Source of the DNA: Rhizomicrobium sp.
GTDB taxonomy: Bacteria > Pseudomonadota > Alphaproteobacteria > Micropepsales > Micropepsaceae
Length of the DNA: 64,000 nucleotides
Reading direction: 5' to 3'
Assembly: GCA_037200985.1 (NCBI GenBank)
Contig: JBBCGJ010000001.1
Location: 906,756-970,755, forward strand
In this document: in pieces, positions 5,351-18,863 of the stretch
Numbering within the stretch: position 1 is the first letter of the stretch
Layout: every line of letters starts with the position of its first letter
Notes under the pieces: generated by a model
Databases searched by the model: none
Told to the model about the DNA's origin: nothing
Seen by the model: the letters and a program-made list of their open reading frames with translations, nothing else
Translations under genes and position numbers: made by a program

Positions 5351-5617
5351 CTATTCGCCGAGCTTGGCGAGCCGCTTGGTGAGGCGCGAGACTTTCCGGG
5401 CGCCGGTGTTCTTGTGCAGGATGCCCTTGGAAACGCCCCGCATGATCTCCGGTTCCGCCGCCTTGAGGGCCGCCTGCGCCGCCGCCTTGTCGCCTTTGGT
5501 CAGCGCTTCCTCGACCTTGCGGACGAAGCCGCGGACGCGCGTCTTGCGCGCCTGGTTGATCTGGGTCCGCTTGGCCGTGGTGCGGACGCGCTTCTTGGAC
5601 GAGGCGATATTGGGCAT
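5351..5617 (-). CDS. rpsT: 30S ribosomal protein bS20
   Basis: S20 binds 16S rRNA in the body of the small subunit. The 88-residue, strongly basic protein starts [17 protein letters not shown] and ends with the conserved [22 protein letters not shown], full length for the family. It is likely a single-gene unit: the epimerase stop lies 60 bp upstream on the same strand, and an AT-rich 446 bp gap lies downstream. rpsT next to dnaA and a crotonase gene is a recurrent alphaproteobacterial order. Confidence 0.98.
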
Positions 5618-5677
5618 CAGGTCTTCCTGCTCGAAATCGGAGGCGGGCGTATAACCCCGTCCGGGTCGGGGGTCAAA

Positions 5678-16642: not shown

Positions 16643-17848
<1,206 letters not shown>

Positions 17849-17906: not shown

Positions 17907-18041
17907 TTAGGACGCCGGCTCTTCGGCGGCCGCGATCCAGTCCAGGATCGCTTCCGAAAAGCCGTTGACCCTCGTCCACGCATCGCTGCCGACGCCGTTC
18001 TGGTAGGACGCGACGTTGATCAGGTAGTTATGCGTGCCGAA
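17907..18041 (-). pseudogene. C-terminal remnant of a Ro60/Rsr (TROVE) protein
   Basis: About 45 codons ending at TAA 17907-17909 read like the end of a bacterial TROVE/Ro60 protein: HNYLINVASYQNGVG followed by W.RVNGFSEAILDWI. From memory, TROVE proteins end their von Willebrand A fold with the same layout (a strand with NxA.Y..G.G, then a helix G[FL]S[ED]A..xxI). The upstream part of the frame is not protein-like; it runs into a palindromic intergenic repeat at 18042-18133 and then the Y RNA array, so roughly nine tenths of a normal gene is missing. The remnant lies 58 bp from rtcB on the same strand. The family call is by recall, not by search; an unrelated small protein is the alternative. 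Confidence 0.6.
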
Positions 18042-18133
18042 CGGTGCTGAGTGAGCGTAGCGAACGAAGCGGAGGGGGCCTGCCCAGCCCTCTCCACCGC
18101 TTCGCGGTCCCCCCGCAACAGCGGGGGAGAAAA
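18042..18133. repeat. Palindromic intergenic repeat fragment (CCTCCCCCGC family)
   Basis: GGTGCTGAGTGAGCG...AAGCGGAGGGGG followed by a GC-rich block and CCCCCGCAACAGCGGGGGAG. The right end matches the ends of the elements at 28862, 34743 and 49431. It abuts the rsr remnant exactly where protein similarity stops, suggesting it marks or caused the truncation. Confidence 0.6.
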
Positions 18134-18187: not shown

Positions 18188-18352
18188 CACGCGATCCGGG
18201 AACGGTCGATGCTGAGACGCTTCCGGGCTTTCGCCCTTCGGCTAGCGCTCTATCCGCTGAGCTACGGGCGCATGGAACGCCCGGCGGGATTCGAACCCGC
18301 GACCTCTCGTTTAACAGACGAAGTAACAGCAATCTTCACCACGGATCGCGTG
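18188..18352 (-). ncRNA. Y RNA-like gene with permuted tRNA mimic, unit 4 (last transcribed)
   Basis: Closed by a perfect 10 bp terminal stem (GGATCGCGTG, plus 18343-18352, with CACGCGATCC, 18188-18197). Inside are the shared GUGGUGAAGAU and, on the return strand, AGCAUCGACCGUUCCC; GAU-GCUG pairs with CAGC-AUC around one bulged U. The core is a permuted tRNA: T arm GCGGG-UUCGAAU-CCCGC (plus 18284-18300), acceptor CGGGCG, a 7 nt loop, acceptor CGCCCG, then D arm GCUC/GAGC (18247-18265). A GGGC-GAAA-GCCC hairpin precedes the return strand. Known bacterial YrlA RNAs carry such a tRNA mimic at the end of a Ro60-binding stem. A normal tRNA is excluded because the 3' half comes before the 5' half. 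Confidence 0.8.
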
Positions 18353-18356
18353 TGAT

Positions 18357-18506
18357 AAGGCGCCGGGGAAGGGGAACGGTCGATGCTGTCGCTGCCCGAA
18401 GGCCGAGCTGAGCTACGGCCTCGCGGCCGGCAGGCATTGAACCCTGCGCCTCCGCGCTTTCGCGCGGCGCTCTATCCGAAGTAACAGACATCTTCACCAC
18501 CGCCTT
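18357..18506 (-). ncRNA. Y RNA-like gene with permuted tRNA mimic, unit 3 (broken in the D loop)
   Basis: Terminal stem AAGGCG/CGCCUU (plus 18501-18506 and 18357-18362); conserved GGUGGUGAAGAUG and ACAGCAUCGACCGUUCCCC; GAUG-CUGU pairs with ACAG-CAUC. The tRNA module is opened differently from units 2 and 4. GGAUAGAGC (the 3' half of a D arm, plus 18469-18477) comes first, then a CCGCGC-GAAA-GCGCGG arm in the anticodon position, the T arm GCAGG/CCUGC (18430-18447), the acceptor CGGCC-GCGA-GGCCG, and finally GUAGCUCAGC (the 5' half of the D arm, 18407-18416). The Y stem would therefore leave from the D loop. A GCC-UUCG-GGC hairpin precedes the return strand. Confidence 0.78.
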
Positions 18507-18532
18507 CGCCCTTGCGGGCGAACGGATGAGAC

Positions 18533-18680
18533 ACCGGGGAACGGTCGAGTCCCGTATTGCCTCTTGCGAGGCGATGACGCTCTGCCGCTGAGCTACGCCG
18601 GCGCTTGCGCGCCGCCGGGCGGGTCTCGAACCCGCCGGCCTTCACCGTGGCGATGCAACAGGACTCTTCACCACCGGCAG
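18533..18680 (-). ncRNA. Y RNA-like gene with permuted tRNA mimic, unit 2
   Basis: Conserved CCGGUGGUGAAGAGUCC and GGACUCGACCGUUCCCCGG, with GAGUCC/GGACUC and CCGG/CCGG pairings forming the Y stem. The core is permuted: T arm GCGGG-UUCGAGA-CCCGC (plus 18619-18635), a CGGCGC-GCAA-GCGCCG stem where the acceptor should be, so a GNRA loop replaces the 3'/5' ends, then D arm GCUC/GAGC (18579-18596). UCAUCG after the D arm can pair with CGGUGA before the variable region, rebuilding an anticodon stem. A GCCUC-GCAA-GAGGC hairpin precedes the return strand. The ends are less certain (outer pairing is only 4 bp plus wobbles). Confidence 0.78.
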
Positions 18681-18683
18681 TTT

Positions 18684-18863
18684 GAAAAAGTACGCTGGGG
18701 AACGGGCGATCTCGGCGTTCGACAATCGAAACGCAGGTTCGGCCTTGCGGCTTCCCCGAGACCCGCGACGCACCCGTCTCTCCAGACGGATTCCACGGTA
18801 CGATCGATTGAAGGCGGTTTCCCGCAGGTGGAGAGAAGTATCCGAAATCTTCACCACCAGCGT
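18684..18863 (-). ncRNA. Y RNA-like gene without a recognisable tRNA mimic, unit 1 (first transcribed)
   Basis: Terminal stem ACGCUGG/CCAGCGU (plus 18857-18863 and 18692-18698), conserved GGUGGUGAAGAU near the 5' end and GAUCGCCCGUUCCCC near the 3' end, then a U run (plus 18685-18689) that could terminate the RNA. The middle has a CCGUCU-GGAG-AGACGG hairpin and a GCC-GCAA-GGC hairpin, but no TUCGA-type T loop or D arm. It is either a Y RNA of a second type, comparable to the YrlA/YrlB pairing known in enterobacteria, or a degenerate copy. Confidence 0.65.

Follow-up and report, generated by a model that had tools for sequence, protein, structure and literature searches.

Bacterial Y RNAs are small RNAs in which an imitation tRNA is borne on a stem, and the locus described here raises the question of whether the tRNA mimics of a single array are all attached to their stems at the same point. 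In the window (the whole 64,000-nucleotide stretch of Rhizomicrobium sp. DNA that was analysed), four YrlA-type Y-RNA units lie in tandem on the minus strand at 18190-18863, with (G)GUGGUGAAG as their common 5' motif and GUUCCC as their common 3' motif. The initial annotation had claimed that the permutation point differs between units, the tRNA being opened at the anticodon side in units 2 and 4 and within the D loop in unit 3. The units are listed below, where R1 is a covariance model built from an alignment, A2, of 20 D-loop-open units.

18690-18863, minus strand: unit 1, a Y stem with a divergent head (R1 30.9 bits; fold z-score -0.3)
18529-18680, minus strand: unit 2, a Y RNA with an anticodon-side opening and the D arm intact at 18579-18596 (Rfam YrlA 26.8 bits, below gathering threshold)
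18364-18506, minus strand: unit 3, a Y RNA with its tRNA-like module open in the D loop (R1 127 bits, unit 3 being itself a member of the R1 training set; 19 homologues aligned)
18190-18348, minus strand: unit 4, a Y RNA with an anticodon-side opening and the D arm intact at 18247-18265 (Rfam YrlA 42.1 bits, below gathering threshold)

Scanning the window with the Rfam YrlA model (RF02553) gave no match at the gathering threshold, and unit 3 was absent even at E-values up to 1, so it falls outside this model and was identified as a Y RNA by its context and parts. Unit 1 mimics a tRNA only poorly. The D arms of units 2 and 4 are intact as claimed, and the anticodon-side opening is refined for unit 4, which from its sequence seems to be open at the D/anticodon junction and to retain a small anticodon-position hairpin (TCGT-CTGTTAA-ACGA in the window, TCGA-CTGTTAA-TCGA in the relative G022). 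The tRNA-Asn(GTT) called by ARAGORN at 18258-18347 was rejected as a false call on unit 4, made because this unit has the anticodon-like loop CTGTTAA. Promoter and terminator scans at the array were uninformative.

In unit 3, the two D-arm halves, GGAUAGAGC and GUAGCUCAGC, form the two ends of the tRNA-like module and enclose the anticodon-position, T and acceptor arms. Read from 5' to 3', the unit consists of the Y stem, a linker, GGAUA-GAGC, G, CCGCGC-GAAA-GCGCGG, AGG and the T arm, followed by CGGCC-GCGA-GGCCG, UA, GCUC-AGC, a small UUCG hairpin and the Y stem. Its parts are as follows.

18469-18477, minus strand: 3' part of the D arm, GGAUAGAGC, with G18 G19 and then the D-stem 3' strand GAGC at 18469-18472 (read from the sequence; conserved in homologues)
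18452-18467, minus strand: anticodon-position arm, CCGCGCGAAAGCGCGG, 6 bp with a GAAA cap (5 of 6 pairs changed on both sides among homologues)
18430-18447, minus strand: T arm, GCAGG-GUUCAAUG-CCUGC, with an 8-nt loop in this genus (read from the sequence; GCGGG/CCCGC in G022)
18416-18429, minus strand: acceptor-position stem, CGGCC/GGCCG, with a GCGA cap (read from the sequence; covarying pairs)
18407-18415, minus strand: U8 A9 and the 5' part of the D arm, GCUCAGC, with the D-stem 5' strand GCUC at 18410-18413 (read from the sequence; conserved in homologues)
18394-18403, minus strand: extra hairpin, GCC-UUCG-GGC, separating the D half from the Y stem (pair types co-vary in homologues, helix 8)

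The initial annotation had placed GGATAGAGC at 18469-18477 and GTAGCTCAGC at 18407-18416, with a GAAA-capped arm in between; these positions, like those of the intact D arms of units 2 and 4, are all correct on the minus strand. When the D halves of the homologue consensus were joined, as GUAGCUCAGUU followed by GGUAGAGCGCC, the result was a D arm of the ordinary tRNA kind, severed between positions 17 and 18. Around these positions the D loop of natural tRNAs can vary in length.

Folding was performed on unit 3 both rejoined and intact. After the Y stem and acceptor cap had been trimmed off and the D halves linked, the minimum free energy structure was a complete cloverleaf (-34.6 kcal/mol); among 500 shuffled sequences, 4 gave any cloverleaf and 5 were equally stable. 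The intact unit folded singly lacked the D stem in its lowest-energy fold, with a probability near 0, and the corresponding probability was 0.13-0.20 in close relatives, 0.5-0.84 in some others and near 0 in several homologues. Since single-sequence folding ignores tertiary contacts, these values were given little weight for or against the D stem, and because the method misses the D stem of the window it was left out as support.

The homologues lie next to rsr, the gene for the Ro60 orthologue Rsr. Within the window's family, 17 of the 96 genomes have Rsr (TROVE) with a Y array directly upstream, and rtcB lies downstream of rsr in most of the Rsr-bearing genomes, in the same operon order as in the window. 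In named genomes, 80 Rsr loci were found. The D-loop-open order recurs beside rsr in 24 loci besides the window, in three alphaproteobacterial groups; such units were found in the window's family, Bradyrhizobium, Hyphomonadaceae and a Hyphomicrobiales MAG. R1 scored them at 94-158 bits. Orthologues lacking the D arm reached 77-91 bits, and units open on the anticodon side about 45-75 bits; visual inspection added one D-open unit of greater divergence (L052, 75 bits). R1 hits in unrelated alphaproteobacteria, at about 30-39 bits, were disregarded as probably tRNA genes or chance matches.

The helices of unit 3 are conserved as pairs. In A2, whose 20 units share the order, 93.5% of cells are paired, and 19 of 37 pairs changed on both sides, compared with a shuffled mean of 7.1 and none of 500 shuffles as high; the pairing was destroyed when partners were slid. 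RNAalifold predicted the D stem unprompted from the homologue alignment. About 18 Bradyrhizobium orthologues of unit 3 (L072, L078, L080, L097 and other loci, at about 5520-5650, plus strand) have lost both D-arm halves together and kept the other arms, whereas L104 keeps the D 3' half with a damaged 5' half. The outer and inner Y stems also covary, as parts of a long terminal stem that joins the 5' and 3' ends and has a conserved internal (Ro-binding) region. Within A2, the window's subtype, the D stem is nearly invariant, so D-stem covariation was taken from more distant canonical units.

The canonical Rsr operons (Rsr of 515-519 aa, Y motif GGCGAAUGC) hold about 20 D-open units, often two or three each, adjoining anticodon-side-open units. 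Examples are found in Rhizobium etli CIAT 652 plasmid pA, Shinella sp. WSC3-e, Methylosinus trichosporium OB3b pOB3b_01 and Novosphingobium sp. THN1 pTHN. A first regular-expression classifier made many false calls and was replaced by a finder combined with reading by eye; the finder returned 36 D-open matches and 47 matches to both orders, compared with 7 and 0 in shuffled sequence, and many of the real-sequence matches were still false. In the canonical units the D-stem pairs change in step: besides GCUC/GAGC and GCGC/GCGC there is GCUG/CAGC in a viral contig, and tRNA-Leu-like units, whose variable arm is long, have GCG/CGC. The D stem was fully paired in 37 of 41 units, a count in which the halves of three special units were entered by hand and the GCTT/AAGC units of L201 and L273, with an unclear acceptor arm, were left out; none of 20,000 reshufflings of the 3' halves did as well. 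The count made on the alignment agrees (0 of 500 as high). This D-stem covariation rests on a small number of independent changes, about three. Covariation in homologues, which the initial annotation had named as a check, is thus present in the A2 helices and, for the D stem, in the canonical units, and the homologues together with the D-stem covariation back its claim that unit 3 is opened within the D loop.

A viral contig with Rsr (L229) carries a D-open Y RNA around 4792 that ARAGORN calls as tRNA-Arg(CCU) once rejoined; unjoined, or without the D 3' half, it gave no ARAGORN tRNA call. A 7-nt anticodon-like loop is kept in this unit and in one other D-open unit (L202, 3706-3835).

Some further units of these loci were recorded. 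At L202 3480-3611 (minus strand) and L258 6175-6285 (plus strand), the D-open unit has a long variable arm of class II (tRNA-Leu-like). The GCTT/AAGC units, at L273 from 4739 (plus strand) and L201 from 6343 of the reverse strand, have no capped acceptor, and in L273 TGTCT..AGACA crosses GGTCC..GGACC, a possible pseudoknot. Anticodon-side-open units of unrelated genomes share an identical insert, GCAGCCGCCACACCAACCCTGC, in the acceptor-cap loop (L064 5560-5692, minus strand; L262 from 5831 and L263 from 5380, plus strand), which is perhaps a small mobile element.

The window's own locus contains the following genes.

17919-18047, minus strand: remnant of rsr, its last ~42 codons only (profile E 1.9e-13; 63% identity to residues 397-438 of G028 Rsr)
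16643-17848, minus strand: rtcB RNA ligase, downstream of the array (Pfam RtcB 8.3e-127; operon order same in relatives)

About 100 bp of G+C-rich repetitive sequence lies at the rsr break; the Y array and rtcB remain, and rtcB looks intact. A TROVE gene search of the genome (one contig, estimated 100% complete) found nothing beyond the rsr remnant, and RtcR was sought in this genome and not found. Compared with G028, the window lacks 105 bp at 18370/18371, a stretch that in G028 comprises a short Y unit and the outer 3' strand of unit 3, CCGCC; the strand in the window is CCUUCCCCGGCGCC, so the outer (Ro-binding) stem of its unit 3 is altered in its 3' strand. The 105 bp were probably lost through recombination between GUUCCCC repeats, and a deletion in the window's lineage is likelier because the window retains the tail of the short Y unit. 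As rsr is gone from the genome, the window's unit 3 is probably an orphaned relic; with rsr deleted and the outer stem altered, function is best sought in relatives keeping rsr.

The gene order, the permutation, the covariation and the phylogenetic spread, all observed directly, lead us to the reading that unit 3 belongs to a distinct, conserved subtype of Ro60-associated Y RNA of the YrlA kind, whose head is a permuted tRNA opened in the D loop, and that each subtype most likely tethers or screens Rsr with its own tRNA-binding proteins (probability roughly 0.75). For Rsr binding, the tertiary fold, the partners and the function, we infer the following arrangement. The head of unit 3 would be a circularly permuted tRNA with its opening at roughly positions 17/18, and the Y stem, the Rsr-binding end, would therefore leave from the elbow side. 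The anticodon-position arm and the capped acceptor-position arm would stay free, with the elbow placed beside the Y stem; since unit 3 retains G18-G19 and the T loop, contact at the elbow may still be possible. In units 2 and 4, which represent the usual subtype and have an intact D arm, the Y stem would exit at the anticodon side. It follows from tRNA geometry that a D-open Y RNA plausibly presents a different face of the tRNA to its protein partners, and the most likely function of the rsr-Y RNA array-rtcB operon would be to tether or screen Rsr, through the two subtypes, with different tRNA-binding proteins.

The D-loop opening may instead be real and functionally neutral, the array turning over by duplication, recombination and loss while both topologies do the same job. 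Closely related Bradyrhizobium switch between D-open, D-less and absent states, with 24 changes on the Rsr tree, at least five of them forced for the D-less state; such frequent changes show that Y-RNA units turn over, and unit number and order also vary between genomes. A neutral origin through this turnover is a serious rival. However, both topologies usually stand side by side in one array with the arms conserved in both, which suggests separate roles, and we consider neutrality possible and somewhat doubtful.

It is very improbable that unit 3 arose by decay or shuffling of a unit opened on the anticodon side, with the upstream GAGC a leftover that does not pair with GCUC. The window's lowest-energy fold without a D stem and the damaged locus with its deleted rsr would fit such an origin, but the orthologues are conserved in many genomes with covarying arms, the D stem shows compensatory changes in canonical units, and its two halves are lost jointly. 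The more specific idea that unit 3 is a degraded unit 4, which the initial annotation had named as a possible refutation, is contradicted by conserved orthologues of unit 3 itself in several alphaproteobacterial lineages. The idea that unit 3 is a circularly permuted tRNA gene of the kind known in red and green algae, yielding a functional tRNA on processing, was rejected as scarcely credible: the gene order fits a tRNA permuted in the D loop and an RNA ligase gene, rtcB, lies downstream, but the acceptor-position stem is just 5 bp, GCGA-capped and without a CCA end, a GAAA tetraloop occupies the anticodon position, and the unit, which has neither free acceptor ends nor an anticodon, sits inside a Y stem adjoining rsr in relatives.

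The reading of unit 3 as a D-loop-open Y RNA can be compared with known systems. The basal stem of YrlA binds Rsr, and DusA and TruB act on its tRNA-like head, which is also linked to PNPase (PMC8394870); the circular permutation of YrlA relative to tRNA is already known (PMC11472068). Like YrlA (RF02553; Salmonella structure 6CU1), the array adjoins rsr and rtcB in relatives and has a long terminal stem, and the arms of the unit 3 head (T, D and capped acceptor-position) are permuted in order. Unlike YrlA, unit 3 is opened in the D loop, not at the anticodon side, has a separate anticodon-position arm and is missed by the Rfam model. The algal type I circularly permuted tRNA genes likewise have their junction in the D loop (20/21; PMC3978253), whereas unit 3 is a tRNA mimic inside a Y stem and not a tRNA. 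The two-piece (permuted) tmRNA of Caulobacter and others (PMC3978253) is also a permuted bacterial tRNA-like RNA; it differs in having another junction and no Ro association, and unit 3 has no mRNA-like part. No description of D-loop attachment of the Y stem appeared in the literature searched, which did not extend to the primary Y-RNA papers, where an earlier description is possible; the D-loop-open Y RNA is a conserved form that is apparently undescribed so far.

The Salmonella rsr-yrl-rtcBA operon responds to damaged tRNA, and its authors suggested that the YrlA head might competitively inhibit an anticodon nuclease (PMC7790460). A bolder proposal, which we rate as rather unlikely, is that Ro60 operons keep parallel Y-RNA sets showing opposite faces of the tRNA. 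The D-loop-open set would expose the anticodon arm, which in some units has a complete 7-nt loop, and would act on anticodon-arm enzymes as a tether or a decoy, for instance on nucleases making the breaks that RtcB, encoded alongside, repairs.

The tRNA mimic of the bacterial Ro RNP has two different attachment points, often within one operon, and these offer a direct test of how the face of the tRNA relates to the protein recruited (PNPase, tRNA modification enzymes, anticodon nucleases). The D-open subtype as a whole is probably missed by RF02553 and by surveys that rely on this model; its units occur on plasmids of familiar strains, among them Rhizobium etli CIAT 652 and Methylosinus trichosporium OB3b.
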